Of a stretch of DNA of 64,000 bases, positions 7,550 to 40,986 are shown one piece after another. The notes beneath the pieces were generated by a model, which was not told the DNA's origin, made no database searches, and worked only from the letters and a program-made list of their open reading frames with translations. Within the stretch, counting starts at the first letter, position 1. Each line of letters begins with the position of its first letter. The position numbers and the translations under genes are program-made. The DNA is from Siphonodentalium dalli (taxonomy: Eukaryota > Mollusca > Scaphopoda > Gadilida > Siphonodentaliidae). The stretch is from assembly GCA_032622095.1 (NCBI GenBank), contig CP136064.1, forward strand, positions 131,633,129-131,697,128. The letters run 5' to 3'.

Positions 7550-8297
7550 AAACACCGCCCGGACCAGCCCGGACCCCACATATGGACTATATGAGTAATT
7601 TAATTGGCAATATAAGTGCAGGGGTGTCACGGAAACACACTCAGGGTCGCTATTAACCCTCAAAATGCCGGCATCGGCGAAAATGTTCGCCGCGAAATGA
7701 AGCTAACAGCCCGGACCGCCCCTGCTGCGCCCAGGTGTGATTTTGGTATCCATATCTGTGCGAGGGTGTTAATGAAACCCAAATACGCACGGAGAGTGGT
7801 CAAGGTCAAACGGAAGTGCCGTTATCAACCCCTAAACTTCCCAGATTCAGCCAGAATTACAAAATTGTGCCCCCAATAAACAAACTCACAGCCCGGACCC
7901 CCTTAATGTCCTCGTACTTCTAATAACTCCTTACATATATGTTGCGGAACTACCCTCGACTATACACTCACGAAAACAAAAGGGCGAGTCGCCCACGAAT
8001 GCCTAGCAATTAACCCCCAAAATGCCGCCATCGTCGAATATGTTTACCGATATCGACGCTGACAGCCCGGACCAACCCGGACCCCACATATGGACTATAT
8101 GAGTAATTTAATTGGCAATATAAGTGCAGGGGTGTCACGGAAACACACTCAGGGTAGCTATTAACCCTCAAAATGCCGGCATCGGCGAAAATGTTCGCCG
8201 CGAAATGAAGCTAACAGCCCGGACCGCCCCTGCTGCGTCCAGGTGTGATTTTAGTATCCATATCTGTGCGAGGGTGTTAATGAAACCCAAATACGCA
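7550..8297. repeat. 508-bp tandem repeat, first unit and start of second
   Basis: The sequence from 7616 ('ggggtgtcacggaaacac') recurs at 8124, an offset of exactly 508 bp, with only a few substitutions. Each unit is relatively rich in CpG and contains repeated 'gcccggacc'. Unit two is interrupted at 8297 by LINE insertions and resumes at 12057-12152 and again at 13364-13632. The short frames at 7616-7879 and 8124-8309 are duplicated noise, not genes. Confidence 0.85.
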
Positions 8298-9260
8298 CGG
8301 ATAGGATAGGATAGGATCATTTATTTACAATATACATGAATTATACAATGGCAGAAATACATAATAAGGTAAAGCAGTATATTGTCGGGGGTAGCCTAGC
8401 CCTATCGGGCTGTCTTCCTGCTACCCCCTAAAACAGGTATCAGTATAAATAATAGAAAAGATGCTTGTATCCATATCCACGCACAGACTATAATCATATA
8501 TAAAACTTTGTAGAATCCAGTACTTAGGGCATTTCAAAAACAAGTATTTGTGTGGTTGTGAGCCAATCCAGACGAGTTATAAGATCGAAAATGTATTATC
8601 TCTCCATATGAATGTTTTGAACTGTTCAGATTTTCTAAACATATGACAGTTTCCGTTCCAGTTCCGGTTCCATGGGTTTATTAGGAACAAAACAATTAGT
8701 TTTTTGTTGCTACAACGGATTCAGGCGAGAGATACCACCATCTTTAGTTCGGTAAACACAATGCGGATCTATAAAGATCGCCGGAAAGTCTCTTTGTTGA
8801 GTGAGGTTTTGGGATAATTCAGATTAACAATATTACATATATATAATGTTATAATTTTATTATTATGTATGTCTAGTGATATAGGGTCATTGCCACGTTA
8901 GAGTAATCATAATAATTTTATACGGTAACATCTATGATGTATCGTAGTGTATATGGGCATGCTAGGAACGAGAATCCGATGTGTGTCCACTTGCAGGTGT
9001 GAAGAACATTATTCGAGTAGAGTTAGGATTATACATCGCATATGACAATTAATGTTCGTAGTATTATAGAGCACAATCGGGACATCCTTTGTTTTTACAG
9101 CGTACATTTTCTGGGTATTTTCTCAGCATGGCTATCTGTAAGCGCTTCTTCAATGTGTGCCTGCTTTGGCAAGAAGTATATACTTTTTCCATATTGTTCC
9201 ATGTTGTGGGGAAGGCGTGGTTGGGCAGGTTTCCTGACCAGTCAGTTCTAGGAAGTTCCA
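8298..9260 (-). mobile_element. 5'-truncated LINE, minus strand
   Basis: The lower-coordinate end is the element's 3' terminus. It shows a (TAGGA)n tail at 8298-8316 (ATCCT repeats on the coding strand) and an AATAAA-like stretch. A stem-loop lies at 8387-8428. The C-terminal protein tail reads minus-strand over 9064-9255 and includes FPTTWNN and CKNKGCPDC, matching the intact LINE at 38397-40986. It is flanked by 'acgga' at 8293-8297 and 9261-9265, consistent with a target-site duplication. The endonuclease and reverse transcriptase are missing, so the copy is dead. Confidence 0.85.
8387..8428 (-). promoter_or_regulatory. LINE 3'-UTR stem-loop, copy 1
   Basis: On the element's strand the order is GGGGGTAGC, A, GGAAGAC, AGCCC, GATA, GGGCT, AG, GCTACCCCC. 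This gives an outer 9-bp stem, an asymmetric GGAAGAC bulge, an inner 5-bp stem and a 4-nt loop. The same architecture with different stem sequences occurs at 11926-11967 and 38488-38529. The likely role, by analogy with LINEs that recognise a 3' stem-loop, is template recognition by the reverse transcriptase (inference). Confidence 0.75.
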
Positions 9261-9279: not shown

Positions 9280-11598
9280 TTCACTTAAGAAACAAGAACT
9301 ATATACCCGTAAACTAAGCTCGCCTTCCTCCATCCATACGAATTCCTACCTCAAATATCGACAACTATATAACAAACTTATCCGGAAAAGTAGAAGCATG
9401 TATTACTGTGAAATATTAGAAAAGAATAAGGATAGTTTTAAAATAACATGGAAGACCCTCAAAGGTGCAATAAAACGAGACAAAAATACGGACGGATACC
9501 CGAATGTTCTACATGATAACAACATACAGTTTACAAATCCTGACACTATCGCTGAAAAAGTTAATGACTATTTTTCCAATATAGGTAAAAAAACCACAGA
9601 ACTTATTGAAAATCACACAGATGTAAACTTCCTCGATTATTTAACGAATAGACAAAGCAACGAGCTAAATATTACGCCCACCACAATTCAAGAGGTTATT
9701 TTAACTTGCTACTCAATGAATGGACAAATCAGCAGTGACTTCAATGGAATATCTACAAAACTGATGAAGGAAACCATATTTTATGTAGCACCAGCATTAA
9801 AGCATATATTCAACTTGTCGTTCAAACAAGGTCATGTTCCCAACAAAATGAAAATAGCTAAAGTTGTACCAATACCGAAAAATAGTGACAAGGGGGATAT
9901 ATAGAGGATCTCACATGAGTTTCTATTTTATACGGAATTTATCAACCGAGTTCACTAAATTCGATTTTAGCCGAGGTTTACCGAGGCTCAAATAGAATTT
10001 AGTGGACGAGGTTGATAAATTACGTATAAAATAGGACGAGTGCGAGATACTTTTTATCACATGATCAAATAAACGCGAAGCAATGCGAAATATCCATCGA
10101 AAACAACGATAAAAACCGCAGCGATCGCAAGTCATTTGAAGAACGATGTGACGTCATCGCACGCGCTGATATTAAACGTGTCTCTTATCGATAATTATGA
10201 AACTGCTTTTATGGGCAAATTATGTGATAAAAACAATTATCGTCCAATAAGCATTATTCCCGTATTTTCTAAACTACTCGAAAAACTCATGCAAAAACGT
10301 TTAGTTGATTTTCTTAATGAATCGGACATCTTATTTAAACATCAGTACGGATTTCGCCCAAACCATTCAACTTTTCATCCCATCATTCATCTACTGGATC
10401 ATATTGTGAAAAATAACGACAAGCCCACGAAAGATTCCACCGTAGCCATTTTTCTTGATCTGTCCAAAGCTTTTGACACAATAAACCACGAAATCTTACT
10501 TACACAAATTGAACATTATGGAATTAGAGGCATGGCAAACAACTGGTTTCGAAGCTATCTCAATGAGAGACGACAATACGTAGAATTCAATGGAAGCAAG
10601 TCAAATCTCCTTAAAACATCATGTGGTGTTCCTCAGGGTCCTTTCTCGGGCCCATAAATTTTCTCCTCTACGTGAGCGATATGTCAAATTCAACTACTAT
10701 GGATCTCTTATCATATGCCGACGATACAACCCTAATGGCCAGTGGACAAAATGAAGCGTTAATCCAAAGTTATGTCAATAACGAATTAAGAAATCTATCT
10801 GACTGGTGTTGCTGCAACAAACTAGCCATCAATGCTAACAAAAGCAATTATATGCTCTTGCATCCACAAAACAATGACAAAAAATGGAATACAATTAAAA
10901 TATATCTCAATGGAGCCGAACTTCGACGGATAGGGAACATGCGGAACGAATCGTCTGCCAATTTTTTAGGTATCCATATAGATGAAAACCTGACCTTTAA
11001 TAAACACATTTCTATTGTATGCTCAAAAATGGCACATGCAATTTATTGCATTAATAAAGTTAAACATTTTCTCCCGAGCAAGGCTCTCAAAACATTATAC
11101 TTCGCCCTAATTCAAAGCCACTTAGTTTATGGCATCCAAATATGGGGACATGTATCGGCAGTGAAGAAACTATATTTATTACAAAAAACGAGCCATCAGA
11201 ATTATATGTAACAAAAAATATAGAAGTCACACCGATCCTCTTTTCAAACAAGAAAACATTTTAAAAATAGATGATTTACATAAATTACATGCATCCATTT
11301 TCATGCATGATTGGTACTACGATCGCTTACCGGTGTCTTTTTCTGGTATGCATGACAAGAGAGCAGAACAAAATAGACGACAACCTAATCCTATAGTACA
11401 AAAAAATTCAGGACCATTTCTAAAGTTCTCCCATACCATTCATTCCCCTTTATGTGGAATTCCCTAGAAATTAAATATACCTCTAAACAATCAAGACATG
11501 TGTTCCGAAAACGTTTGAAAACGGATATCATTACTACCTATTCAGCGAGCGTGCGATGCAAAAACCGAAGATGCCCTGATTGCACAAACGATACATAA
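9280..11598 (+). pseudogene. Reverse transcriptase pseudogene of the plus-strand LINE
   Basis: RT blocks are readable in order: KMKIAKVVPIPK, then NYRPISIIPVFSK, QYGFR, LDLSKAFDTINHEILL, CGVPQG and SYADDTT. The catalytic aspartates FLD, AFD and YADD are still present. The frame is broken by a 330-bp insertion at 9899-10228 and by a one-base deletion near 10638 (PQG|PFSGP instead of PQGSFLGP). A further frameshift lies near 11170-11185. The C-terminal tail includes MWNS and CKNRRCPDC and stops at 11596-11598. It cannot produce a functional enzyme. Confidence 0.9.
9899..10228. mobile_element. 330-bp hairpin insertion (MITE-like) inside the LINE
   Basis: It splits the RT frame between ...KGD and KNNYRPIS. 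GATA occurs on both sides (9896-9899 and 10226-10229), which fits a GATA or TA target duplication. An inverted repeat with ~56-nt arms (9907-9962 and 9995-10050) carries CTATTTTATACG and AATTTATCAACC on one arm and their complements on the other. The remaining 180 bp is asymmetric. No terminal inverted repeat at the exact ends was found, so the superfamily is undecided. Confidence 0.75.
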
Positions 11599-11925
11599 TT
11601 TTCTGATAACAAAATAAACAAAACAATACAAAACAAAATTCACTCTAGTATGCATGTTAATTGAAAAAAAAAAAAAGAAAAAAAAAACAATTCCCAAAAC
11701 CTCACTCACATTATTCCTACTCGGTTCCACTCACACATGTATATTCATAGTAATCATTCATTATATCGACCAAGTAGGTACCCATACACACATATGAACC
11801 ACTTTTCGTACCATCGCCCTAACAACGCCTATATATTAAAAAACCCAGTCTGCACACAATAAACGTAACCTAAAAACAATCAAGTTAATTCGGCCATCTT
11901 CATCATATAATCTGTCACTACATCC

Positions 11926-11967
11926 AGGGGTGATAGGAAGACAGTCAGCCATGACTATATCACCCCT
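11926..11967 (+). promoter_or_regulatory. LINE 3'-UTR stem-loop, copy 2
   Basis: AGGGGTGATA (11926-11935) pairs perfectly with TATCACCCCT (11958-11967). GGAAGAC (11936-11942) is the 5' bulge, and AGTCA (11943-11947) pairs with TGACT (11952-11956) around a GCCA loop. The layout matches copies 1 and 3, but every stem base combination differs. An exact duplicate lies at 19669-19710 within the Helitron-captured copy. Confidence 0.8.
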
Positions 11968-12152
11968 AGCAATATACATGTATAGTCTATTAATATTATA
12001 TTTATTTGTAATTGTACTTTCCATGTATGTGTATTGTAAATAAAAATTATCCTAACGGAAGTGCCGTTTATTAACCCCTAAACTTCCCAGATTCAGCCAG
12101 AATTACAAAATTGTGCCCCCAATAAACAAACTCACAGCCCGGACCCCCTTAA

Positions 12153-13363
12153 GTCTTTCGACCCGGCAGCGCGCTAAAGCGGACACGACGTAATTTACGT
12201 TCATCCCGGCAGTCCGCTTTAGCGGGCAGAGCGCAATTGTCGGGAATAATACAATATTTCCAGAGATTTACAAATGATTTTATTGGTTAGCGACTTGTAT
12301 ATCCTTTGGGTGATATTCGGTATCAATACTAATTTATTGGAGCTCACGAATACCTAGCATGTACCCCATTAAGAGAATTTCCGGGCCTAAATATAGACAG
12401 CACCTGTATGACGTCACGATTACTATCTTGGGGTTTTCTAAAAATCGATGACGCAATATACTGCCGACAGGTGTGGTGTTTTGAGTCATATTTGATTTTG
12501 GTTTATTGTTTATTACAAACACATACCGATAAGATTATTGTTATTACGTTTATGAAATAAAGAAGATAATGTTGAACTTTCTAACAATGTTTTATTTGTG
12601 GTATCCGTCTAATGTCTTCTATTTTCGACGCAATATTACGGAAATCACCGTGCCGCTCAACGTCGTGACTTTAATAATAGCTGCACGTGTATATTATAAA
12701 CATGACATCGACATTCATAATCATTTTGGGAATCCGACCAGGACATTGGCAGTTGTTTTATTTCTAATGTTACTCATAATTCCTCAACTTACTGACAAAT
12801 AAATCTCTGTGTGTCCATAATTGCTAAATGTGGGAGTATATGTCTGTTTCGGTCAAATGGCATCTCGTATGCGTATTACCTAGGTTAGTACTGGTCTGCA
12901 CTTGCCTTTGATAAAGCAATTATGTTCAATGAACCGATTGGTAAAACATTTAAAACCATGCAGGGTGTCACCACAACAACGATTATACACCACACTTGCA
13001 AAGAATGACACATACATGTACAGTGTATATGTATTTGTGGAAAACATTGATATGCGAAGTGGATATCCCAGATACAGGTGATACGTGCCACTATAGCATA
13101 TATTGGGGCTCAATGCCCCTTCTCGGTTCTCACCTGCACACAGCCACACACCTGATATATCATTTAGATTTGAAACCACAACTGGTATATAACATAAATT
13201 GAAGGTCACTTGCTAACGATAATAAAACACGCAATTTGCCATACCGGACATCACTCTAAAGGTAGTGTTGCAGCAAAATATCAGGGACACATAATTTTAC
13301 TTAGGCAAGCTGATAATCCAGGGTTCTGGGACATCAATATCTGTATATTCAGGGATGAAAGAG
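12153..13363. mobile_element. 1.2-kb insertion of unknown class in the 508-bp repeat
   Basis: The repeat reads ...cccccttaa up to 12152 and continues gtcctcgtacttc from 13364, so these 1211 bp are an insertion. The ends are weakly inverted (TCTTTCgaCCC against TCTTTCatCCC read inward). An internal inverted repeat, GCTAAAGCGGAC (12171-12182) with GTCCGCTTTAGC (12212-12223), flanks an ACGTAA/TTACGT palindrome. The open frame at 12569-12802 has no recognised relative. The class is unassigned. Confidence 0.5.
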
Positions 13364-13632
13364 GTCCTCGTACTTCTAATAACTCCTTACATATGTGTTG
13401 CGGAACTACCCTCGACTACACTCACGAAGATACAAGGGGGAGTCGCCCACGAATGATTGGCAATTAACCCCCAAAATGCCGCCATTGCCGATTATGTTTG
13501 CCGATAACGACGCTGACAGCCCGGACCGCCCCTGCTGCGTCTAGGGGTGATTTTAGTGTCCATATCTGTGCGAGGGTGTTAATGAAACCCAAATACGAAC
13601 GGAGAGTGGTCAAGGTCAAACGGAAGTGTCGT
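13364..13632. repeat. Resumed, internally deleted unit of the 508-bp repeat
   Basis: It continues the unit interrupted at 12152 (gtcctcgtacttctaataac) and ends at 'cggaagtgtcgttt'. Between 'gacagcccggacc' and 'gcccctgctgcg' about 150 bp present in other units is absent. The right edge abuts Helitron-type sequence at 13633. Confidence 0.75.
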
Positions 13633-14190
13633 TTATTGCAATGGACGTGGCTAAACGACTGACCCCATGCGTCCGAAATACGGATGCGCGACGAAATGCA
13701 ATTATCTCGATTAAAAAGGCAGAATTGATCTAAGCAGCGTTTGTTTACAATTCAACGCAACGCTATCGCTCGAAATATTATGCAGAGAGATTTCACGACG
13801 GGATTAATTGACTGTCCGCTCTTTTCGGGGAGACGGGTACCATGAATTAACTCATTGAAAAACAAACAATGCGTTGTCTGTCGTTCCTAGGAAGGGGGGG
13901 GTTTCATCGGGTCAATTCGGGGACTAATCTAGGAACGGGGATGTTTAGGACGGGCACCATGAATTATCTCATTGAAAAACAAACAATGCGTTGTCTGTCG
14001 TTCCTAGGAAGGAGGGATTTCATCGGGTCAATTTTTTCCGCCAATAACAAAAAATTCATTTAAAAAATTAATTAAAACAATTTAAAATTAAAAACATTTA
14101 AAAATAATTAATTAAATTTAAAAAAACCATTAAATTAATATTAAAAAATTCAAAAAAAAAAATAAATAAAAACAAAATATTTAAAACAAG
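13633..14190 (+). mobile_element. Fragment of a type B Helitron body
   Basis: It matches the body of units at 18427-18800 and 43373-43860, from 'attgcaatggacgtggct' through 'gcagaattgatc' to the AT-rich module. The segment 'cgttgtctgtcgttcctagg' occurs twice (about 13872 and 13989). Both Helitron termini (ATATATTTTG start, CTAG end) are missing. It may be a decayed element or an internal piece left by recombination. Confidence 0.7.
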
Positions 14191-17395: not shown

Positions 17396-18057
17396 ATAAT
17401 CGCCAATGGAGGCTTCGCTTCGCATGGTTGGCAATTATCACGATACACAGGGAACACTTTGACGTTCGTACTCATATTTCACCAATTTTTGTACCTGGCT
17501 TTCCAATCCTAAGTTTCAAGGGGAAATGTCTAATTTTACTCTATTTGTCGTTATATACATATTATACATATTTATCACACCATTTATTATTCATTTTCAT
17601 AAAAATAAAATAAAAAAGCCGAAGATGACATGTTTAAACTGTTTGAAGCACGAATTTGGCGATAACTTATCAGAGTACGTTATACTTGTGATAGTTACGT
17701 TACGCACACGTGTTCCAATATCCTATTGCGATAATCGCTTAACCCTTCAGTTTTCAACGGCATTTCAATTGGTTGAAATTAAAATTTCTCAAGTTCCAGC
17801 TCAACACGAATCTAGTGACCTAATTGGTAGAAATACTTTAGCAGTAATTCTTAGTTTTATAAGTCATAACTCTAATTTTATTGACGATACGAGCTCAACA
17901 TCATAATATGTCACTGTTTATGGCGGTGTTATCCAAACGTGTGCTTTGATAATGGTTATAATTTTATTTTGCGATCAAACGTCAGTGCAGCCAAGCAGAA
18001 ACGCATAGGCACTAGTTCAATTCAGCAGAAACGCATAAGTCCTACGATTATAGTACA
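17396..18057. other. Unassigned DNA with a 126-codon open frame
   Basis: The frame at 17526-17906 (+) has a hydrophobic N-terminal stretch and a CLNC pair near residue 36. It resembles no family that I know, and its codon use is indistinguishable from the surrounding AT-rich sequence. I do not call it a gene. Confidence 0.35.
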
Positions 18058-18091
18058 CCCACTGAACGCGCTTCGCGCGTTGGTCAGTGGG
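18058..18091. repeat. Strong GC-rich hairpin
   Basis: CCCACTGA (18058-18065) pairs with TCAGTGGG (18084-18091), and ACGCGC (18066-18071) pairs with GCGCGT (18075-18080) around TTC, with a TGG bulge. It sits just before the Helitron terminus at 18145. It may mark the end of another repeat captured by or fused to that element. Confidence 0.75.
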
Positions 18092-18145
18092 TGAAAAAAT
18101 GTCATGTTTCTGACCAACCACGCCAGTGGCGGGCTAACCTGCTAG
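18092..18145 (+). mobile_element. 3' terminus of a type B Helitron, 5' part unresolved
   Basis: 'atgtcatgtttctgac' is followed by the hairpin CGCC-AGT-GGCG, 'ggctaacctg' and CTAG at 18142-18145. The next element's TCTA follows immediately. This is the same terminus as in the full type B units, but no matching body lies directly upstream. Confidence 0.7.
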
Positions 18146-21100
18146 TCTATATATATATTGAGACTTCCGTATATATATATGTATATATGTGTGTATATAT
18201 ATATATGTGGGTACTTCATAGAATCGAAAACGCGTGTACAGATTGAGCTCAAATTTAGTATATAAGTGTAAAATCCCACGGACACCGTCGTGTTCGCGTT
18301 TTGGAGAAGGTCACAGAACATCTTCTCCCTTCCCAATCATCAAAATCACCGCAAACGCCACTTCGGGGGTTAAGGCATCGACGATCTTTATATTGACCAT
18401 ATTCGGAGGTGTTAAGGATTAACGCTCTTTATTGCAATGGACGTGGCTAAACGACTGACCCCATGCGTCCGAAATACGGATGCGCGACGAAATGCAATTA
18501 TCTCGATTAAAAAGGCAGAATTGATATAAGCAGCGTTTGTTTACAATTCAACGCAACGCTATCGCTCGAAATATTATGCAGAGAGATTTCACGACGGGAT
18601 TAATTGACAGTCCGCTCTTTTCGGGGAGACGGGTACCATGAATTAACTCATTGAAAAACAAACAATGCGTTGTCTGTCGTTCCTAGGAAGGGGGGATTTC
18701 CTCGGGTCAATTTTTCCGCCAGAAACAAAAAATTAATTTAAAATTAATTAAAACAATTAAAAATTTATTAATAAAAAAACAACATTAAATTAATATTAAA
18801 AAATAAAAAATTTATTGCATTAATAAAGTTAAACATTTTCTCCCGAGCAAGGCTCTCAAAACATTATACTTCGCCCTAATTCAAAGCCACTTAGTTTATG
18901 GCATCCAAATATGGGGACATGTATCGGCAGTGAAGAAACTATATTTATTACAAAAAACGAGCCATCAGAATTATATGTAACAAAAAATATAGAAGTCACA
19001 CCGATCCTCTTTTCAAACAAGAAAACATTTTAAAAATAGATGATTTACATAAATTACATGCATCCATTTTCATGCATGATTGGTACTACGATCGCTTACC
19101 GGTGTCTTTTTCTGGTATGTATGACAAGAGAGCAGAACAAAATAGACGACAACCTAATCCTATAGTACAAAAAAATTCAGGACCATTTCTAAAGTTCTCC
19201 CATACCATTCATTCCCCTTTATGTGGAATTCCCTAGAAATTAAATATACCTCTAAACAATCAAGACATGTGTTCCGAAAACGTTTGAAAACGGATAACAT
19301 TACTACCTATTCAGCGAAGATGCCCTGGTTGCACAAACGATACATAATTTTCTGATAACAAAATAAACAAAACAATACAAAACAAAATTCACTCTAGTAT
19401 GCATGTTAATTGAAAAAAAAAAGAAGAAAAAAAAAAACAATTCCCAAAACCTCACTCACATTATTCCTACTCGGTTCCACTCACACATGTATATTCATAG
19501 TAATCATTCATTATATCGACCAAGTAGGTACCCATACATACATATGAACCACTTTTCGTACCATCGCCCTAACAACGCCTATATATTAAAAAACCCAGTC
19601 TGCACACAATAAACGTAACCTAAAAACAATCAAGTTAATTCGGCCATCTTCATCATATAATCTGTCACTACATCCAGGGGTGATAGGAAGACAGTCAGCC
19701 ATGACTATATCACCCCTAGCAATATACATGTATAGTCTATTAATATTATATTTATTTGTAATTGTACTTTCCATGTATGTGTATTGTAAATAAAAATTAT
19801 CCTAACGGAAGTGCCGTTTATTAACCCCTAAACTTCCCAGATTCAGCCAGAATTACAAAATTGTGCCCCCAATAAACAAACTCACAGCCCGGACCCCCTT
19901 AAGTCTTTCAACCCGGCAGCGCGCTAAAGCGGACACGACGTAATTTACGTTCATCCCGGCAGTCCGCTTTAGCGGGCAGAGCGCAATTGTCGGGAATAAT
20001 ACAATATTTCCAGAGATTTACAAATGATTTTATTGGTTAGCGACTTGTATATCCTTTGGGTGATATTCGGTATCAATACTAATTTATTGGAGCTCACGAA
20101 TACCTAGCATGTACCCCATTAAGAGAATTTCCGGGCCTAAATATAGACAGCACCTGTATGACGTCACGATTACTATCTTGGGGTTTTTCTAAAAATCGAT
20201 GACGCAATATACTGCCGACAGGTGTGGTGTTTTGAGTCATATTTGATTTTGGTTTATTGTTTGTCACAAACACATACCGATAAGATTATTGTTATTACGT
20301 TTATGAAATAAAGAAGATAATGTTGAACTTTCTAACAATGTTTTATTTGTGGTATCCGTCTAATGTCTTCTATTTTCGACGCAATATTACGGAAATCACC
20401 GTGCCGCTCAACGTCGTGACTTTAATAATAGCTGCACGTGTATATTATAAACATGACATCGACATTCATATTCATTTTGGGAATCCGACCAGGACATTGG
20501 CAGTTGTTTTATTTCTAATGTTACTCATAATTCCTCAACTTACTGACAAGTAAATCTCTGTGTGTCCATAATTGCTAAATGTGGGAGTATATGTCTGTTT
20601 CGGTCAAATGGCATCTCGTATGCGTATTACCTAGGTTAGTACTGGTCTGCACTTGCCTTTGATAAAGCAATTATGTTCAATGAACCGATTGGTAAAACAT
20701 TTAAAACCATGCAGGGTGTCACCACAACAACGATTATACACCACACTTGCAAAGAATGACACATACATGTAGAGTGTATTTGTATTTGTGGAAAACATTG
20801 ATCCGAAATACGGATGCTGGACGAAATGCAATTATCTCGATTAAAAAGGCAGAATTGATCTAAGAAGCGTTTGTTTACAATTCAACGCAACCTTATCGCT
20901 CGAAATATTATGCAGAGATATTTCACGACGGGATTAATTGACTGTCCGCTCTTTTCGGGGACTACGGGGAAGTTTAGGACGGGTACCATGAATTAACTCA
21001 TTGAAAAACAAAGAATGCGTTGTCTGTCGTTCCTAGGAAGGGGGGATTTCATCGGGTCAATTAGAATAAAAATTAAATAAATAGGTCACTTAGAATAAAA

Positions 21101-21281
21101 ATAAAATAAATATAACAAAATTCAAAAAAACATAAATTAAATTTTAAAAACATTAAATTAATATTAAAAAATTCAAAAAAAAAATATATTAAAAAAAATA
21201 TATATATATAAATAATAAAAAAATAATAAAAAAAATGTCATGTTTCTGACGAACCACGCCAGTGGCGGGCTAACCTGCTAG
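18146..21281 (+). mobile_element. Type B Helitron unit carrying a 2-kb captured passenger
   Basis: It starts TCTATATATATATTGAGACT directly after the previous CTAG and ends CTAG at 21278-21281, preceded by the CGCC/GGCG hairpin. Helitron body runs from 18146 to about 18808. About 18809-20802 is a >99%-identical copy of 11040-13051 (LINE 3' half plus flank). Helitron body then resumes at 'tccgaaatacggatgctgg' (about 20803) and runs through the AT-rich module to the terminus. It encodes no transposase. Capture of chromosomal DNA is a known Helitron behaviour, and here both donor and captured copy are visible. Confidence 0.8.
18809..20802 (+). pseudogene. Captured copy of LINE 3' half and adjacent DNA
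   Basis: It begins in 'tttattgcattaataaag' within the LINE C-terminal coding region and ends in 'gtggaaaacattgat'. Compared by eye with 11040-13051 it has about a dozen substitutions, an 18-bp deletion in the sequence encoding the CKNRR tail (after 'attcagcga') and small A-run changes. It includes a second copy of the LINE stem-loop (19669-19710). The open frames at 19586-19774 and 20320-20553 are duplicates of meaningless frames in the donor. Confidence 0.85.
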
Positions 21282-21669
21282 TCTATCTCATATATATTTT
21301 GAAGACCTCTGTCTGTCTGTTTGTCTGTTTGTTTGTCTGTCATTGATACAAATCTACGATTCTCGACCGATCGGGACGAAACATGGTACTTGTGTGTAGT
21401 TTGACCAGGCGGTCGACGTTGTCGTATTGGCGAGCCCGTGCGGCGCCCGCTTCGCGCATGCGCAGACGAGATCTCGGAAACGGGTGGAGCTATCGACTTG
21501 AAATTTGGTATGTGAATGTATCTTGCCCCGGATACGAAGTTTATCGGGTCGCCGAGCCCGTGCGACGCCAGCTTCGCGCATGCGCAGACGAGATCTCGGA
21601 AACGGGTGGAGCTATCGACTTGAAATTTGGTTTTTGAATAGCCCGGACAACGTCGGGCTCATCGGCTAG
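21282..21669 (+). mobile_element. Type A Helitron unit 1
   Basis: It starts TCTATCTCATATATATTTTG, followed by a (CTGT/TTGT)n tract and 'ctcgaccgatcgggacgaa'. Two copies of a 122-bp internal repeat follow, then the stem GCCCG-GACAACGT-CGGGC, 'tcatcgg' and CTAG. The internal repeats carry GCGCATGCGC. Minus-strand open frames beginning MREAGVARARR are an effect of the repeat. Confidence 0.75.
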
Positions 21670-22040
21670 TCTCATATATATTTTGAAGACCTCTGTCTGT
21701 CTGTTTGTTTGTCTGTCTGTTTGTCATTGATACAAATCTACGATTCTCGACCGATCGGGACGAAACTTGGTACGTGTGTGTAGTTTGACCAGGCGGTCGT
21801 CGTTGTCGTATTGGCGAGCCCGTGCGGCGCCCGCTTCGCGCATGCGTAGACGAGATCTCGGAAACGGGTGGAGCTATCGACTTGAAATTTGCTATGTGAA
21901 TGTATCTTGCCCCGGATACGAATTTTATCGGGTCGCCGAGCCCGTGCGACGCCAGCTTCGCGCATGCGCAGACGAGATCTCGGAAACGACTTGAAATTTG
22001 GTTTTTGAATAGCCCGGACAACGTCGGGCTCATCGGCTAG
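21670..22040 (+). mobile_element. Type A Helitron unit 2
   Basis: It starts TCTCATATATATTTTGAAGA right at the preceding CTAG. The second 122-bp repeat is shortened ('cggaaacgacttgaaattt' lacks the 'gggtggagctat' stretch). It ends with the GCCCG/CGGGC hairpin and CTAG (22037-22040). Confidence 0.75.
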
Positions 22041-22423
22041 TCTCCTATATATTTTGAAGACCTCTGTCTGTCTGTATGTCTGTATGTCTGTATGTCATTT
22101 ATACAAATCTACGATTCTCGACCGATCGGGACGAAACTTGGTACGTGTGTGTAGTTTGACCAGGCGGTCGTCGTTGTCGTATTGGCGAGGCCGTGCGGAG
22201 CCCGCTTCGCGCATGCGCAGACGAGATCTCGGAAACGGGTGGAGCTATCGACTTGAAATTTGCTATGTGAATGTATCTTGCCCCGGATACGAATTTTATC
22301 GGGTCGCCGAGCCCGTGCGATGCCAGCTTCGCGCATGCGCAGACGAGATCTCGGAAACGGGTGGAGCTATCTACTTGAATTTTTTTTTTGAATAGCCCGG
22401 ACAACGTCGGGCTCATCGCCTAG
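22041..22423 (+). mobile_element. Type A Helitron unit 3
   Basis: It starts TCTCCTATATATTTTGAAGA, has a (CTGTATGT)n tract and two 122-bp repeats. A T-run precedes the terminal hairpin. The end reads 'catcgcctag', one base different from the usual 'catcggctag'. Confidence 0.75.
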
Positions 22424-23473
22424 TCTATACTATATATTTTGAGACTTCGTATATATGTGTGTGTGTGTGTGTGTACTTCATAGAATCCAAAACGCGTGTA
22501 CATATTGAGCTCAAACTTCCTATGTAAGTGTCAAATCCCACCGACACGACCGTGGTCGCGGTTTAGAGAAGCTCAGAGCACCCGTTCTCCAATCTCAAAT
22601 CACCGCAAAGGCACGGCGTGGGTTAATCAAGTGATTATTTAATGAGCGTTTGTTTTTGACGCATCTCTATAAAGAGCGTCTGTTTCCCATTCAACGTTAT
22701 TGGCATCTGCAGAGTTATACGGGAACGCAAACGTTATCGCTCGAAATTTATTCCCTGCGAGCACGGATGGCGCGCTTTGTTTTTACAGTATATACCTTTG
22801 GTATATACCGAAATCATCCCAGATAATCACGAATATAGCATCAGATTTCTCCCCAGATATACCGTTATAAAGCTACTGGAATCTGCCAATCTACTATTAA
22901 TATATGTGTATATTTGTGGGTACTTCATAGAATCGAAAACGCGTGTAGGAACGGGCATCCCCACGGCAATGTCGGCAAATATATATGAGTGTGTCCTTTA
23001 TAGACTCGAACCGATTGAGCTCAAACTTGCTAAATATTTACTGGGAAATTCCAGGCAATGCCGATTGAGCTCAAACTTGCTACCTACGGGAAGTGTCATA
23101 TATATGTGTGTGTCCTTTATAGACTCGAACCGATTGAGCTCAAACTTGCTAAATACGGGAAGTGTCATGGACGGGTTCATTGAAGAAAAAAAAAAATTGG
23201 GTAAAATTGAAAAACAAAATTAAAAAGGCACAATTAACACCTAGAAAAACCAAAAAAAATCGGGTAAAATTTAAAAACAAAAGCACAATTAACTCATTGA
23301 AAAACAAAATAATTAACTCATTGAAAAACAAAAAATTAAATTAAAATTGTCATGTTTCTGACTATTGCCGAAATTTGCTGCAAATGCAGCACAAGTGTCT
23401 CGGAACCTGTTGCAATTGCTTTTTCGAACAAAGCCATGGGACGAATGCCGCCAGTGGCGGGCTAACCTGCTAG
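22424..23473 (+). mobile_element. Type B Helitron unit 1
   Basis: It starts TCTATACTATATATTTTGAG with a (TG)n tract and ends with CCGCC-AGT-GGCGG, 'gctaacctg' and CTAG (23470-23473). It contains a segment from 'ctgcgagcacggatggcgcg' to 'tctgccaatcta' (about 22756-22892) shared only with unit 9 (33163-33297). That points to a common ancestor distinct from the other B units. AT-rich 'ttaactcattgaaaaac' repeats precede the terminus. Confidence 0.7.
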
Positions 23474-24295
23474 TACTATATATTTTGAGAACTCCGTATA
23501 TATATGTGTGTATATGTGTACTTTATAAAATCGAAAAAGGCTGGTCGGATCGAGCTCAAATTTCGTATATAAGTGTAAAAACCCACGGACACCGTAGTTG
23601 TCGTGTTTTGAAGAAGCTCAGAGCCCCCGTTCTCCAATCTCAGTCACAAAAAAACGGTACTGCGGTGGTTAATCAAGTGATAATTTAATGAGCGTTTGTT
23701 TTTGACGCATCGCTATAAAGAGCGTGTGTTTACCATTCAACGTTATTAGCATCTGCAGAGAGATATACGGGAACAATACTTTTGAGTGGTTTCCTATGCG
23801 GGGAGATTTATTGGATGCCATAGTACTCTTACAACATCATTGTTATAGTATGTATGACACTTAGGTCAGGGCTTAGGGTGGGGGGGGGGGGGGTGGTAGT
23901 TAGTGTGGATATAGGCATAATGCTTCTCAGAAATCCCGGTTACAAACCAACACTCACAATTTCGTCTTTTGCATCAGATACCAACACCTCGACCGATCGG
24001 GACGAAACTTGGTACGTGAGTGTAGTTTGACCAGGTGGTCGTCGTTGTCGTATTGGCGAGCCCGTGCGACGCCCGTGCGGCGCATGCGCAGACGAGATCT
24101 CGGAAACGGGTGGAGCTATCGACTTGAAATTTGGTATGTGAATGTATCTTGCCCCAGATACGAATTTTATCGGGTCGCCGAGTCCGTGCGACGCCAGCTT
24201 CGCGCATGCGCAGACCAGATCTCGGAAACGGGTGGAGCTATCGACTTGAAATTTGGTTTTTGAATAGCCCGGACAACGTCGGGCTCATCGGCTAG
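23474..24295 (+). mobile_element. Chimeric Helitron unit 2 (B 5' end, A 3' end)
   Basis: The 5' part (TACTATATATTTTGAGAACT, 'cgaaaaaggctggtcggatc') is type B. After about 23772 there is a ~220-bp segment unlike either type, including a run of 13 G near 23880. Type A sequence begins at 'ctcgaccgatcgggacg' (about 23990), with two 122-bp repeats and the A terminus CTAG at 24292-24295. The same chimera occurs at 35952-36720. Confidence 0.7.
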
Positions 24296-24871
24296 TCTAT
24301 CTCATATATATTTTGAAGACCTCTGTCTGTTTGTATGTTTGTCTGTATGTATGTTTGTCATTTATACAAATCTACGATTCTCGACCGATCGGGACGAAAC
24401 TTGGTACGTGTGTGTAGTTTGACCAGGCGGTGGACGTTGTCGTATTGGCGAGCCCGTGCGGCGCCCGATTCGCGCATGCGCAGACGAGATCTCGGAAACG
24501 GGTGGAGCTATCGACTTGAAATTTGGTATGTGAATGTATCTTGCCCCGGATACGAATTTTATCGGATTGCCGAGTCCGTGCGACGCCAGCTTCGCGCATG
24601 CGCAGACGAGATCTCGGAAACGGGTGGAGCTATCGACTTGAAATTTGCTATGTGAATGTATCTTGCCCCGGATACGAATTTTATCGGGTCGCCGAGCCCG
24701 TGCGACGCCAGCTTCGCGCATGCGCAGACCAGATCTCGGAAACGGGTGGAGCTACCGACATGAAATTTGGTTTTTGAATAGCCCGGACAACGTCGGGCTC
24801 ATCGGCTACTTGAAATTTGGTTTTGAATAGCCCGGATGAATAGCCCGGACAACGTCGGGCTCATCGGCTAG
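24296..24871 (+). mobile_element. Type A Helitron unit 4, duplicated terminus
   Basis: It has three 122-bp repeats. The terminal hairpin region is present twice. The first copy (about 24780-24806) ends 'atcggctac' and so lost CTAG, and the second ends in CTAG at 24868-24871. This suggests read-through of a defective terminator. Confidence 0.7.
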
Positions 24872-25422
24872 TCTCATATATATTTTGAAGACCTCTGTCT
24901 GTATGTATGTTTGTTTGTTTGTTTGTTTGTTTGTCATTAATACAAATCTACGATTCTCGACCGATCGGGACGAAACTTGGTACGTGTGTGTAGTTCGACC
25001 AGGCGGTGGACGTTGTCGTATCGGCGAGCCCGTGCGGCGCCCGCTTCGCGCATGCGCAGACGAGATCTCGGGAACGGGTGGAGCTATCGACTTGAAATTT
25101 GCTATGTGAATGTATCTTGCGCCGGGTACAAATTGTATCGGGTCGCCGAGCCCGTGCGACGCCAGCTTCGCGCATGCGCAGACCAGATCTCGGAAACGGG
25201 TGGAGCTATCGACTTGAAATTTGGGGTGTGAATGTATCTTGCCCCGGATACGAATTTTATCGGGTCGCCGAGCCCGTGCGACGCCAGCTTCGCGCATGCG
25301 CAGACGAGATCTCGGAAACGGGTGGAGCTATCGACTTGAAATTTGGTATGTGAATGTATCTTGCCCCGGATACGAATTTTATCGGGTCGAATAGCCCGGA
25401 CAACGTCGGGCTCATCGGCTAG
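24872..25422 (+). mobile_element. Type A Helitron unit 5
   Basis: It starts TCTCATATATATTTTGAAGA and has a (TTGT)n tract. Three full 122-bp repeats and one truncated repeat, fused directly to 'gaatagcccggac', precede the terminal hairpin and CTAG (25419-25422). Confidence 0.75.
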
Positions 25423-26588
25423 TCTATCTATACTATATATTTTGAGACTTCGTATATATGTGTGTATATGTGTGTGTGTGTACTTCATAGAATCCAAAAC
25501 GCGTGTACAGATTGAGATCAAATTTCGTATGTAAGTGTAAAATCCCACCGACACCGCCGTAATCGTGTTTTCGAGAAGCTCTGAGCACCCTTTATCCACT
25601 CCCAGTCATCGAAATCAGCTCAAACGGCACGGTCGGGGTTAATAACGTCATTATATATATATATGAAGTCAGAGTCTCCAAAGTTATACCGGAACAAACA
25701 CGTGTTTACGTCGTCTTGGGGGTCCACGATGGGAGTCTGACTTCAATGCAATGTTATCGCTCGAAACACGTGTTTACTTCGTGTTGAGGTTCACGATGGG
25801 AGTCTGACAATTGTTATCGCTCGAAATAGTACATTAGGACGGGAACGGCTGGACAGATTGAGCTCAAACTTCCTATCTAAAGGTAAAATAACACGTACGA
25901 TGTCGTCCACGCGTTTTCCAGAAGCTCCGAGCACCCGTACTCCACTCCCAGTCATAAAAATCAGCTCAAACGGCACGGTCGGGGTTAATAACGTCATTAT
26001 ATATATATATACGAAGTCAACGTTATTAGCATCTGCATTGAGTGCATTTCCTAGAACGCAACACGTGTTTTACGTCGTCTTGAGGTTCACGATGGGAGTC
26101 ATTTCAATGCAATGTTATCGCTCGAAACACGTGTTTACTTCGTGTTGAGGTTCACGATGGGAGTCTGACATTTCAATGCAATGTTATCGCTCGAAATATT
26201 ATGCAGAAAGGCAGATCTCGGAAACGGGTGGAGCTATCGACCTGAAATTTGCTATGTGAATGTATCTTGCACCGGGTACAAATTTTATCGGGTCGCCGAG
26301 TCCATGCGACGCCCGTGCAGCGCATGCGCAGACGAGATCTCGGAAACGGGTGGAGCTATCGACTTGAAATTTGCTATGTGAATGTATCTTGCGCCGGGTA
26401 CAAATTTTATCGGGTCGCCGAGTCCGTGCGACGCCAGCTTCGCGCATGCGCAGACCAGATCTCGGAAACGGGTGGAGCTACCGGGTACAAATTTTTCTTA
26501 TTGAAACGCGTGGAGCTAAAAATTAAAAACAAATATTAAAAAAATGTCATGTTTCGGACAAGCCGCCGGTGGCGGGCTAACCTGCTAG
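25423..26588 (+). mobile_element. Type B Helitron unit 3
   Basis: It starts TCTATCTATACTATATATTT. Two ~335-bp submonomers are marked by 'acagattgag', 'ggttaataacgtcattatat' and AAACACGTGTTT. They are followed by 122-bp repeats of the A kind and the CCGCC-GGT-GGCGG terminus (CTAG 26585-26588). It is nearly identical to the next unit. Confidence 0.75.
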
Positions 26589-27776
26589 TACTATATATTT
26601 TGAGACTTCGTATATATATGTGTGTGTATATATGTGTGTACTTCATAGAATCCAAAACGCGTGTACAGATTGAGATCAAATTTCGTATGTAAGTGTAAAA
26701 TCCCACCGACACCACCGTAATCGTGTTTTCGAGAAGCTCTGAGCACCCTTTATCCACTCCCAGTCATCGAAATCAGCTCAAACGGCACGGACGGGGTTAA
26801 TAACGTCATTATATATATATATGAAGTCAGAGTCTCCAAAGTTATACCAGAACAAACACGTGTTTACGTCGTCTTGGGGGTCCACGATGGGAGTCTGACT
26901 TCAATGCAATGTTATCGCTCGAAACACGTGTTTACTTCGTGTTGAGGTTCACGATGGGAGTCTGACAATTGTTATCGCTCGAAATAGTACATTAGGACGG
27001 GAACGGCTGGACAGATTGAGCTCAAACTTCCTATCTAAAGGTAAAATAACACGTACGATGTCGTCCACGCGTTTTCCAGAAGCTCCGAGCACCCGTACTC
27101 CACTCCCAGTCATAAAAATCAGCTCAAACGGCACGGCCGGGGTTAATAACGTCATTATATATATATATACGAAGTCAACGTTATTAGCATCTGCATTGAG
27201 TGCATTTCCTAGAACGCAACACGTGTTTTACGTCGTCTTGAGGTTCACGATGGGAGTCATTTCAATGCAATGTTATCGCTCGAAACACGTGTTTACTTCG
27301 TGTTGAGGTTCACGATGGGAGTCTGACATTTCAATGCAATGTTATCGCTCGAAATATTATGCAGAAAGGCAGATCTCGGAAACGGGTGGAGCTATCGACC
27401 TGAAATTTGCTATGTGAATGTATCTTGCACCGGGTACAAATTTTATCGGGTCGCCGAGCCCATGCGACGCCCGTGCAGCGCATGCGCAGACGAGATCTCG
27501 GAAACGGGTGGAGCTATCGACTTGAAATTTGCTATGTGAATGTATCTTGGTCCGGGTACAAATTTGATCGGGTCGCCGAGCCCGTGCGACGCCAGCTTCG
27601 CGCATGCGCAGACCAGATCTCGGAAACGGGTGGAGCTACCGGGTACAATTTTTTCTTATTGAAACGCGTGGAGCTAAAAATAAAAAAAAAATATAAACAA
27701 ATGTCACAATTAACTCATTGAAAAACAAAAAATGTCATGTTTCGGACAAGCCGCCGGTGGCGGGCTACCCTGCTAG
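26589..27776 (+). mobile_element. Type B Helitron unit 4
   Basis: It starts TACTATATATTTTGAGACTT at the previous CTAG and ends at CTAG 27773-27776 ('gggctaccctgctag', one base changed). It is nearly identical to unit 3 over its length, which indicates recent amplification of whole units. It has an extra 'cacaattaactcattgaaaa' before the terminus. Confidence 0.75.
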
Positions 27777-28919
27777 TCTCTATCTATCTATACTATATAT
27801 TTTGAGACTTCCGTGTGTGTGTACTTCATAGAATCCAAAACGCGTGTACAGATTGAGATCAAATTTCCTATGTAAGTGTCAAATCCCACCGACACGAAAG
27901 TGGTCGCGGTTTAGAAAAGCTCAGAGCACCCGTTCTCCACTCCCATTCATCAAAATCAGCTCAAACGGCACGGCCGGGGTTAATAACGTCATTATATATA
28001 TATATGAAGTCAGAGTCTCCAGAGTTATACCGGAACAAACACGTGTTTACGTCGTCTTGGGGGTCCACGATGGGAGTCTGACTTCAATGCAATGTTATCG
28101 CTCGAAACACGTGTTTACTTCGTGTTGAGGTTCACGATGGGAGTCTGACAATTGTTATCGCTCGAAATAGTACAACGGCTGGACAGATTGAGCTCAAACT
28201 TCCCATCTAGAGGTAAAATACCACGTACGATGTCGTCCACGCGTTTTCCAGAAGCTCCGAGCACCCGTACTCCACTCCCAGTCATTAAAATCAGCTCAAA
28301 CGGCACGGCCGGGGTTAATAACGTCATTATATATATATATGAAGTCAGAGTCTCCAGAGTTATACGGGAACAAACACGTGTTTACGTCGTCTTGGGGGTC
28401 CACGATGGGAGTCTGACTTCAATGCAATGTTATCGCTCGAAACACGTGTTTACTTCGTGTTGAGGTTCACGATGGGAGTCTGACAATTGTTATCGCTCGA
28501 AATAGTACATTAGGACGGGTACGAAATGCATTTATCTCGATTAAAAAGGCAGATCTCGGAAACGGGTGGAGCTATCGACTTGAAAATTGCAATGTGAATG
28601 TATCTTGCGCCGGGTACAAATTTTATCGGGTCGCCGAGCCCATGCGACGCCCGTGCAGCGCATGCGCAGACGAGATATCGGAAACGGGTGGAGCTATCGA
28701 CTTGAAATTTGCTATGTGAATGTATCTTGGGCCGGGTACAAATTTGATCGGGTCGCCGAGTCCGTGCGAAGCCAGCTTCGCGCATGCGCAGACCAGATCT
28801 CGGAAACGGGTGGAGCTACCGGGTACAATTTTTTCTTATTGAAACGCGTGGAGCTAAAAATAAAAAAAATATATAAACAATGTTTCGGACAAGCCGCCGG
28901 TGGCGGGCTAACCTGCTAG
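27777..28919 (+). mobile_element. Type B Helitron unit 5
   Basis: It starts TCTCTATCTATCTATACTAT. Its two submonomers are offset by 335 bp ('acagattgag' at 27848 and 28183). Two 122-bp repeats and the CCGCC-GGT-GGCGG hairpin precede CTAG (28916-28919). It is essentially the same as units 6, 7 and 10. Confidence 0.75.
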
Positions 28920-29547
28920 TCTCATATATATTTTGATGACCTCTGTTTGTTTGTGTGTCTGTATGTTTGTCTGTCATTGATACAAATCTACGATTCTCGA
29001 CCGATCGGGACGAAACTTGGTACGTGCGTGTAGTTTGACCAGGCGGTGGACGTTGTCGTATTGGCGAGCCCGTGCGGCGCCCGCTTCGCGCATGCGCAGA
29101 CGAGATCTCGGAAACGGGTGGAGCTATCGACTTGAAATTTGCTATGTGAATGTATCTTGCCCCGGATACGAATTTTATCGGGTCGCCGAGCCCGTGCGAC
29201 GCCAGCTTCGCGCATGCGCAGACGAGATCTCGGAAACGGGTGGAGCTATCGACTTGAAATTTGGTACGTGAATGTATCTTGCCCCGGATACGAATTTTAT
29301 CGGGTCGCCGAGCACGTGCGACGCCAGCTTCGCGCATGCGCAGACCAGATCTCGGAAACGGGTGGAGCTATCGACTTGAAATTTGCTATGTGAATGTATC
29401 TTGCCCCGGATACGAATTTTATCGGGTCGCCGAGCCCGTGCGACGCCAGCTTCGCGCATGCGCAGACCAGATATCGGAAACGGGTAGAGCTATCGACTTG
29501 AAATTTGGTTTTTGAATAGCCCGGACAACGTCGGGCTCATCGGCTAG
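28920..29547 (+). mobile_element. Type A Helitron unit 6, four internal repeats
   Basis: It starts TCTCATATATATTTTGATGA. Four consecutive 122-bp repeats are visible (marker 'gagctatcgacttgaaattt' at about 29122, 29244, 29366 and 29488), more than in any other A unit here. CTAG is at 29544-29547. It sits between two near-identical B units. Confidence 0.75.
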
Positions 29548-30676
29548 TACTATATATTTTGAGACTTCCGTGTGTGTGTACTTCATAGAATCCAAAACGC
29601 GTGTACAGATTGAGATCAAATTTCCTATGTAAGTGTCAAATCCCACCGACACGAAAGTGGTCGCGGTTTAGAAAAGCTCAGAGCACCCGTTCTCCACTCC
29701 CATTCATCAAAATCAGCTCAAACGGCACGGCCGGGGTTAATAACGTCATTATATATATATATGAAGTCAGAGTCTCCAGAGTTATACCGGAACAAACACG
29801 TGTTTACGTCGTCTTGGGGGTCCACGATGGGAGTCTGACTTCAATGCAATGTTATCGCTCGAAACACGTGTTTACTTCGTGTTGAGGTTCACGATGGGAG
29901 TCTGACAATTGTTATCGCTCGAAATAGTACAACGGCTGGACAGATTGAGCTCAAACTTCCCATCTAGAGGTAAAATACCACGTACGATGTCGTCCACGCG
30001 TTTTCCAGAAGCTCCGAGCACCCGTACTCCACTCCCAGTCATTAAAATCAGCTCAAACGGCACGGCCGGGGTTAATAACGTCATTATATATATATATGAA
30101 GTCAGAGTCTCCAGAGTTATACGGGAACAAACACGTGTTTACGTCGTCTTGGGGGTCCACGATGGGAGTCTGACTTCAATGCAATGTTATCGCTCGAAAC
30201 ACGTGTTTACTTCGTGTTGAGGTTCACGATGGGAGTCTGACAATTGTTATCGCTCGAAATAGTACATTAGGACGGGTACGAAATGCATTTATCTCGATTA
30301 AAAAGGCAGATCTCGGAAACGGGTGGAGCTATCGACTTGAAAATTGCAATGTGAATGTATCTTGCGCCGGGTACAAATTTTATCGGGTCGCCGAGCCCAT
30401 GCGACGCCCGTGCAGCGCATGCACAGACGAGATATCGGAAACGGGTGGAGCTATCGACTTGAAATTTGCTATGTGAATGTATCTTGGGCCGGGTACAAAT
30501 TTGATCGGGTCGCCGAGTCCGTGCGAAGCCAGCTTCGCGCATGCGCAGACCAGATCTCGGAAACGGGTGGAGCTACCGGGTACAATTTTTTCTTATTGAA
30601 ACGCGTGGAGCTAAAAATTAAAAAAATATATAAACAATGTTTCGGACAAGCCGCCGGTGGCGGGCTAACCTGCTAG
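29548..30676 (+). mobile_element. Type B Helitron unit 6
   Basis: It starts TACTATATATTTTGAGACTT and ends at CTAG 30673-30676. It is identical by eye to the following unit except for a few bases. The internal NRF1-like GCGCATGCGC of one 122-bp repeat has mutated to GCGCATGCAC. Confidence 0.75.
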
Positions 30677-31809
30677 TCTATACTATATATTTTGAGACTT
30701 CCGTGTGTGTGTACTTCATAGAATCCAAAACGCGTGTACAGATTGAGATCAAATTTCCTATGTAAGTGTCAAATCCCACCGACACGAAAGTGGTCGCGGT
30801 TTAGAAAAGCTCAGAGCACCCGTTCTCCACTCCCATTCATCAAAATCAGCTCAAACGGCACGGCCGGGGTTAATAACGTCATTATATATATATATGAAGT
30901 CAGAGTCTCCAGAGTTATACCGGAACAAACACGTGTTTACGTCGTCTTGGGGGTCCACGATGGGAGTCTGACTTCAATGCAATGTTATCGCTCGAAACAC
31001 GTGTTTACTTCGTGTTGAGGTTCACGATGGGAGTCTGACAATTGTTATCGCTCGAAATAGTACAACGGCTGGACAGATTGAGCTCAAACTTCCCATCTAG
31101 AGGTAAAATACCACGTACGATGTCGTCCACGCGTTTTCCAGAAGCTCCGAGCACCCGTACTCCACTCCCAGTCATTAAAATCAGCTCAAACGGCACGGCC
31201 GGGGTTAATAACGTCATTATATATATATATGAAGTCAGAGTCTCCAGAGTTATACGGGAACAAACACGTGTTTACGTCGTCTTGGGGGTCCACGATGGGA
31301 GTCTGACTTCAATGCAATGTTATCGCTCGAAACACGTGTTTACTTCGTGTTGAGGTTCACGATGGGAGTCTGACAATTGTTATCGCTCGAAATAGTACAT
31401 TAGGACGGGAACGAAATGCATTTATCTCGATTAAAAAGGCAGATCTCGGAAACGGGTGGAGCTATCGACTTGAAAATTGCAATGTGAATGTATCTTGCGC
31501 CGGGTACAAATTTTATCGGGTCGCCGAGCCCATGCGACGCCCGTGCAGCGCATGCACAGACGAGATATCGGAAACGGGTGGAGCTATCGACTTGAAATTT
31601 GCTATGTGAATGTATCTTGGGCCGGGTACAAATTTGATCGGGTCGCCGAGTCCGTGCGAAGCCAGCTTCGCGCATGCGCAGACCAGATCTCGGAAACGGG
31701 TGGAGCTACCGGGTACAATTTTTTCTTATTGAAACGCGTGGAGCTAAAAATTAAAAAAATATATAAACAATGTTTCGGACAAGCCGCCGGTGGCGGGCTA
31801 ACCTGCTAG
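30677..31809 (+). mobile_element. Type B Helitron unit 7
   Basis: It starts TCTATACTATATATTTTGAG and is 1133 bp long. It matches unit 10 exactly in length once the nested insertion there is removed. It shares the GCGCATGCAC mutation with unit 6, so these two are direct siblings. Confidence 0.75.
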
Positions 31810-32827
31810 TCTATACTATATATTTTGAGACTTCGTATATATGTGTGTGTGTGTGTACTTCATAGAATCCAAAACGCGTGTACAGATTGAGATCAAATTT
31901 CGTATGTAAGTGTAAAATCCCACCGACACCGCCGTAATCGTGTTTTCGAGAAGCTCTGAGCACCCTTTATCCACTCCCAGTCATCGAAATCAGCTCAAAC
32001 GGCACGGCCGGGGTTAATAACGTCATTATATATATATATGAAGTCAGAGTCTCCAAAGTTATACCGGAACAAACACGTGTTTACGTCGTCTTGGGGGTCC
32101 ACGATGGGAGTCTGACTTCAATGCAATGTTATCGCTCGAAACACGTGTTTACTTCGTGTTGAGGTTCACGATGGGAGTCTGACAATTGTTATCGCTCGAA
32201 ATAGTACATTAGGACGGGAACGGCTGGACAGATTGAGCTCAAACTTCCTATCTAAAGGTAAAATACCACGTACGATGTCGTCCACGCGTTTTCCAGAAGC
32301 TCAGAGCACCCGTACTCCACTCCCAGTCATAAAAATCAGCTCAAACGGCACTTCCGGGGTTAATAACGTCATTATATATATATATACGAAGTCAACGTTA
32401 TTAGCATCTGCATTGAGTGCATTTCCTAGAACGCAACACGTGTTTTACGTCGTCTTGAGGTTCACGATGGGAGTCATTTCAATCGAAACACGTGTTTACT
32501 TCGTGTTGAGGTTCACGATGGGAGTCTGACATTTCAATGCAATGTTATCGCTCGAAATATTATGCAGAAAGGCAGATCTCGGAAACGGGTGGAGCTATCG
32601 ACCTGAAATTTGCTATGTGAATGTATCTTGCGCCGGGTACAAATTTTATCGGGTCGCCGAGTCCGTGCGACGCCAGCTTCGCGCATGCGCAGACCAGATC
32701 TCGGAAACGGGTGGAGCTACCGGGTACAAATTTTTCTTATTGAAACGCGTGGAGCTAAAAATTAAAAACAAATATTTAAAAAATGTCATGTTTCGGACAA
32801 GCCGCCGGTGGCGGGCTAACCTGCTAG
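31810..32827 (+). mobile_element. Type B Helitron unit 8
   Basis: It resembles units 3 and 4 ('acacgtgttttacgtcgtcttg', 'tatatacgaagtcaacg') but has lost one 122-bp repeat and part of a submonomer ('tttcaatcgaaacacgtg'). CTAG is at 32824-32827. Confidence 0.75.
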
Positions 32828-34970: not shown

Positions 34971-35001
<31 letters not shown>

Positions 35002-40882: not shown

Positions 40883-40986
40883 GGTCTTACTTGCTCGTTT
40901 TATTTTATTAAAAAGTTTACAAAATTCTTTGTATTCTGTTACATTAGATACATTGAGATGACTATGTATAGATGATGCATTTATCT

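Follow-up and report, generated by a model that had tools for sequence, protein, structure and literature searches.

A 2-kb segment that includes part of a LINE, apparently copied from nearby DNA, lies between two truncated units of a Helitron-like array

Results

In the 64,000-nt window of Siphonodentalium dalli DNA analysed here (all coordinates count from its first base, and "window" means the whole stretch) we found that a 2-kb segment at 18809-20802, which we call the passenger, duplicates 11040-13051, and that it sits in an array of Helitron-like units between what appear to be the remnants of two different unit subtypes, L on the left and R on the right. An earlier note on this DNA had described a single Helitron that captured its cargo by interruption of one module; this does not fit flanks that represent two subtypes, each without one end, in a tandem array. 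The explanation we consider probable, though well short of certain, is a deletion across two neighboring array units that was filled by repair with 2 kb copied in cis. An array of non-autonomous units would have lost the 3' end of an L unit together with the 5' part of the next unit, R (~0.4 kb in all, judged against the L unit 43095-43908), and the gap would have been repaired by copying ~2.0 kb from the same DNA molecule, 7.8 kb upstream and in the same orientation, as filler DNA arising via template switching or synthesis-dependent repair. The product would be a chimeric 3.1-kb unit that has the 5' end of L and the 3' end of R and carries a dead LINE fragment. Since source and insert share one window at 0.6% divergence, both the joints and the copying direction are legible base by base, and the passenger looks like a well-preserved example of a known route of DNA shuffling in genomes.

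The duplicated pair and the direction of copying

Self-comparison of the window aligned 11040-13051 with 18809-20802, both on the forward strand, over 2,014 columns at 98.3% identity; the 2-kb duplication is real, and a chance origin is no issue because E = 0. A base-by-base alignment found 12 substitutions (eight transitions and four transversions) among 1,992 compared bases, or ~0.6% divergence, in agreement with the "about a dozen" of the earlier note, along with one gap of 20 bp and two of 1 bp. The 18-bp deletion described there is correct as a net length difference but not as a single event, as the passenger differs from the donor by a 20-bp deletion and two 1-bp insertions.

The donor segment consists of the 3' part of a frameshifted LINE (to ~12052), 99 bp of a repeat with 508-bp spacing (12054-12152) and part of a 1.2-kb stretch. 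The LINE, as delimited by its match to the protein of a second LINE in the window, spans 9326-11586 on the forward strand, and a domain search placed a reverse transcriptase domain in its frames 10073-10654 and 10615-11208. That domain is also present in the second LINE (38915-40984, minus strand), whose 689-codon frame has no stop (reverse transcriptase domain E-value 6e-40) and which is possibly a young copy. The match between the two LINEs runs without a break through the left edge of the donor at 11040, confirming the claim in the earlier note that the donor is contiguous with its LINE, and the match of the recipient to the second LINE starts at 18810, where the passenger begins. Within 11506-11586 the donor encodes VRCKNRRCPDC, which corresponds to IKCKNKFCPDC in the second LINE and to VRCKNKGCPDC in a third LINE fragment (9070-9252, minus strand); the 20-bp deletion takes part of this motif out of the recipient, and neither of the other two LINE sequences that we compared from the window shares it. 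The substitution at 11579/19328 alters the aspartate of the motif in the recipient, and that at 11528/19297 alters, again in the recipient, an isoleucine that is common to the donor and the second LINE and is a methionine in the third fragment. Polarised by eye against the other LINE sequences, 3/3 differences were derived in the recipient; this polarisation covered two of the 12 substitutions and the 20-bp deletion. Because the LINE frame crosses the left edge of the donor and all three polarised differences are changes in the recipient, the sequences indicate that 11040-13051 is the original and 18809-20802 the copy, which is the direction that had been proposed. A frameshift near 11175-11200 is common to donor and recipient, from which we infer that the LINE was dead before it was copied.

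At the other side of the donor, self-comparison showed two copies of the 508-bp-spaced repeat at 7554-8304 (forward strand), within which 7809-8073 holds in one piece what the donor locus has split at 12152/13364. As 7809-7906 adjoins 7908-8073 whereas the matching 12054-12152 and 13364-13527 stand 1.2 kb apart, the 1.2-kb stretch may either have been inserted in the donor locus or have been lost from the repeat copy at 7809-8073. This stretch (12153-13363) is bounded by CTTAA and GTCCTCG, carries CTTTC close to one end and GAAAG close to the opposite one, and contains the right edge of the donor segment at 13051. A Helitron module fragment close to subtype L (13632-14189, forward strand, found by self-comparison and module alignment) lies 580 bp downstream of the donor segment and is joined to the 508-bp repeat at TTTATT.

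The flanks of the passenger

We compared the flanks with other modules of the window by module alignment, counting differences over the columns that match 20803-21062. The right flank (20803-21281, forward strand) differs from the unit at 42600 at 3/242 positions, from the left flank at 10/244, from the module at 13632 in the donor locus at 11/260 and from the unit at 43359 at 12/240. These counts make its assignment to subtype R a firm one. The left flank (18146-18808, forward strand) differs from the 13632 module at 6/244 positions, from the 43359 unit at 6/224 and from the 42600 unit at 7/226, and assigning it to subtype L is probable but less secure than assigning the right flank to R. It lies nearer the copies at 43359 and 13632 in the module alignment; four gap-free variable columns group it with the L copies and two with the R copies; after GGGTCAA it reads TTTTTCCGCC like the L copies, where both R copies read TTAGAATAAA; the gap pattern also agrees with L, as does the 94.7% match of 18150-18599 to the L unit.

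Measured on 43095-43908, the left flank runs from a TC 5' end into the AT-rich module and stops ~80 bp short of the 3' end of the unit, so that the terminator is missing too (A/T-rich sequence at this point makes the figure approximate), and the right flank lacks the first ~317 bp of its unit and retains the 3' end (...GGCTAACCTGCTAG). An interrupted AT-rich module, as described in the earlier note, is therefore seen on one side only: the left flank does end in that module (95.5% AT), but the right flank opens with CCGAAATACGG, which lies far upstream in the other subtype's module.

The two flanks overlap by ~340 bp, and since they differ at 10/244 positions and the passenger copies at 12/1,992, this overlap is older than the copying; the same comparison led us to reject the insertion itself as its source. 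The copying is also younger than the split of the two flanks (~4% apart), and the recent age previously given to the event holds as recent relative to the flanks. We likewise rejected a copy of the larger block 11040-14189 followed by an internal deletion, as the right flank stands at 3/242 from the 42600 unit against 11/260 from the donor-locus module. Gap-filling repair after a break or deletion within an array would be expected to produce just such an arrangement, two truncated units separated by 2 kb of nearby DNA, and the position of the donor in cis and in direct orientation points the same way. An ancestral L-R joint without filler, which the deletion would have removed here, was not seen in the window. 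Two other array units, 23474-24295 and 35952-36894, look mosaic by eye, with the 5' end of one type and the interior or 3' end of the other, and count in favor of repair within the array.

The module at 13632-14189 suggests a variant in which the broken right end, an R module, paired with it and copied leftward through the donor, 13052-13671 being lost later or concurrently. While a module of the same family in the same orientation 580 bp downstream of the donor is what such homology-guided copying calls for, we judge it quite improbable: it needs an extra loss of 620 bp that left no repeat at the joint, and with several module clusters in the window we estimate that one could easily fall within 600 bp by chance.

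The joints

The earlier note had suggested aligning the two segments to their exact breakpoints and any microhomology. That alignment fixes the edges of the passenger to within 2 bases (the AA at 18809-18810 can be assigned to either side), and by eye the left joint shares 2 bp, or up to ~6 bp if an A-run slipped, and the right joint 1 bp. Among random pairs, microhomology of at least 1 bp was present in 27% and of at least 2 bp in 8%; because matches this short are expected by chance, microhomology alone is not evidence at these joints. The sequence TTTATTGCA begins three module or passenger edges in the window (13632, 18811 and 42622). This 9-bp match between the left edge of the passenger and the start of a Helitron module is a lead only, as it was equalled at 2.8% of random edges and at 7.6% of AT-rich edges.

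The alignments showed no 3' tail, of A or of another kind, and no target-site duplication at the joints, which together with the mismatched flanks supports copying of the passenger at the DNA level. This bears on LINE retrotransposition of a 5'-truncated copy with ~1 kb of transduced 3' flank, for which the passenger has the right layout, in that it starts within the LINE frame and passes through the 3' part of the LINE into other sequence in sense orientation. The earlier note had dismissed retrotransposition on the grounds that the LINE is cut mid-gene, an argument that is invalid because LINEs are usually 5'-truncated; its conclusion holds for the other reasons just given. In addition, inspection by eye of the 30 bases preceding 13051 showed no AATAAA, both copies of the LINE carry a frameshift (although help from another copy could bypass that), and retrotransposition leaves two truncated flanks of different subtypes unexplained, so that we consider it extremely improbable.

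We also weighed an assembly artefact, in which a copy of the donor region from the second haplotype was wrongly joined into the array. A divergence of 0.6% is within the range of allelic copies in some invertebrates; however, assembly misjoins usually sit in long repeats and these joints share only 1-2 bp, and the 20-bp deletion has no counterpart in the other two LINE sequences, though an allele could carry it. An artefact of this kind is in our judgment improbable.

The array and the ends of its units

The region 18146-36894 comprises 18 Helitron-like units arranged head to tail and directly abutting one another, which we split at ends reading CGCCAGTGGCGGGCTAACCTGCTAG or GCCCGGACAACGTCGGGCTCATCGGCTAG and variants of these, leaving out two further matches, one at 24809 with the variant CTAC and one at 36739 ending in AATTTT. 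All 18 chosen ends have CTAG, partly by construction as such ends were the search target, and in 18/18 the next base is T; 13 units start with TC and five with TA. The recipient opens the array: before it comes a 52-bp 3' tip (18094-18145, forward strand), belonging to another unit, that abuts the L unit in the same kind of joint as at 43094/43095, and after it come 17 further units delimited by CTAG joints (21282-36894, forward strand). A second, small array (42620-44719, forward strand), our reference for subtypes L and R, has an R part, the whole L unit 43095-43908 and a diverged unit, and the base after its last end, 44719, is A. The unit at 33947-35951 is ~0.9 kb longer than most of its neighbors and has inverted stretches of the other unit type at 34176-34484 and 34983-35031; we read it as a nested or inverted insertion. 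Immediately to the left of the array, 18056-18093 forms a strong hairpin of 16 pairs with a 3-base bulge (z -6.0, unmatched by any of 200 shuffles) that may represent the terminus of another element. Elsewhere in the window, 16-bp tandem repeats (GGTTCACTATTCCGAA) occupy 58492-58615, and 0.8 kb on, at 59428-59518, much the same unit recurs as its reverse complement. The repeats of the window may resemble those of bivalves, which we take as a lead.

The good Helitron ends reported earlier are good by sequence, as the recipient unit starts with TCTATATA (TC at 18146) and finishes with CTAG at 21281 followed by T, but belong to a head-to-tail array. As to a subterminal 3' hairpin, folding of the last 42 bases up to 21281 was no more stable than that of shuffled sequence (z -0.81), with a lowest-energy fold other than the expected CGCCAGTGGCG hairpin palindrome. 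Ends of the recipient type at 18145 and 43094 gave z -0.12, and a B-type end at 21669 gave z -1.64. A Pfam scan (E-value 0.01) found no Rep/helicase in the 58 frames that it covered, out of 121 stop-to-stop frames 85 aa or longer (the other 63 lie mostly in the array repeats); the matches in the 58 were RVT_1 in three and a weak Ig_5 in one. The lack of Rep/helicase has no bearing on membership among non-autonomous Helitrons. Viral and prokaryote contigs contained no exact match to the Helitron 3' end, a result of little weight for a eukaryote, and plasmids contained none to 21200-22500. Rfam gave no hit in the window at gathering scores, nor did a tRNA scan with the bacterial code.

These ends bear on a capture coupled to transposition, whereby rolling-circle copying of an L unit was accompanied by a switch of the polymerase to the nearby LINE and then to an R unit, or a unit already loaded moved to this place. 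The product does have a 5' TC and a 3' CTAG with T next to it, internal capture of the filler type has been reported in Helitrons with end junctions of 2-13 bp (PMC6544945), and head-to-tail arrays fit rolling-circle copying (PMC5876387). However, transposition is not needed, with the donor at a distance of just 7.8 kb and truncated neighbors from an array as flanks, and self-comparison found no third copy of the passenger longer than 80 bp in the window apart from the 99-bp repeat piece at 7809-7906. We therefore hold this alternative to be unlikely, if a serious one, noting that the outcome would look nearly identical had the template switch taken place while a unit was replicating by the rolling-circle mode. 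We rejected end bypass from the donor, because a LINE and not a Helitron end lies upstream of 11040.

Discussion

Repair in place, without transposition, would account for both the truncated flanks and the nearby source, and suggests that some "Helitron captures" may be scars left by repair within tandem arrays rather than the outcome of transposition, an idea open to testing wherever a long-read genome contains arrays of this type. Further, and doubtfully, Helitron arrays might be break-prone and regularly healed with neighboring DNA, such that arrays and not single transposing elements manufacture loaded chimeric Helitrons whose 5' and 3' ends come from different subtypes and which could then be mobilised. 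If array repair were at work, TTTATTGCA at 13632, 18811 and 42622 would mark a preferred switch point.

Capture of filler DNA by Helitrons is already known; here the copied source locus is identifiable and still in place at 11040-13051. Among titles and the openings of abstracts we found no Helitron filler with a donor in cis, though such a case may be in print. Tan et al. (2021) attributed most single-copy captures in animal TIR transposons to gap filling independent of transposition, and reported for them a cis bias, internal breakpoints and a median microhomology of 2 bp (PMC8277862). The cis donor, the AT-rich left break and the short joints seen here agree, by analogy, with what is reported for these single-copy Pack-TIRs (PMC8277862) and with the filler-DNA model for Helitrons (PMC6544945).

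Like the passenger described here, Sfru_Hel1A of Spodoptera frugiperda has other DNA copied inside a Helitron, short end junctions and an identifiable source locus (PMC6544945); unlike in that report, the source here is 7.8 kb away in cis and the flanks are, by our assignment, two different array units. The single-copy Pack-TIRs share a cis donor, internal breakpoints and short microhomology (1-2 bp in the window and a median of 2 bp there), whereas our recipient is a Helitron-like array and not a TIR transposon, and our comparison was made within one window (PMC8277862). The Helitron-associated satellite DNAs reported in oysters resemble the window in their Helitron-type elements, central tandem repeats and tandem organisation, but the tandem arrangement in the window consists of whole units that meet at CTAG/T joints (PMC11136912).
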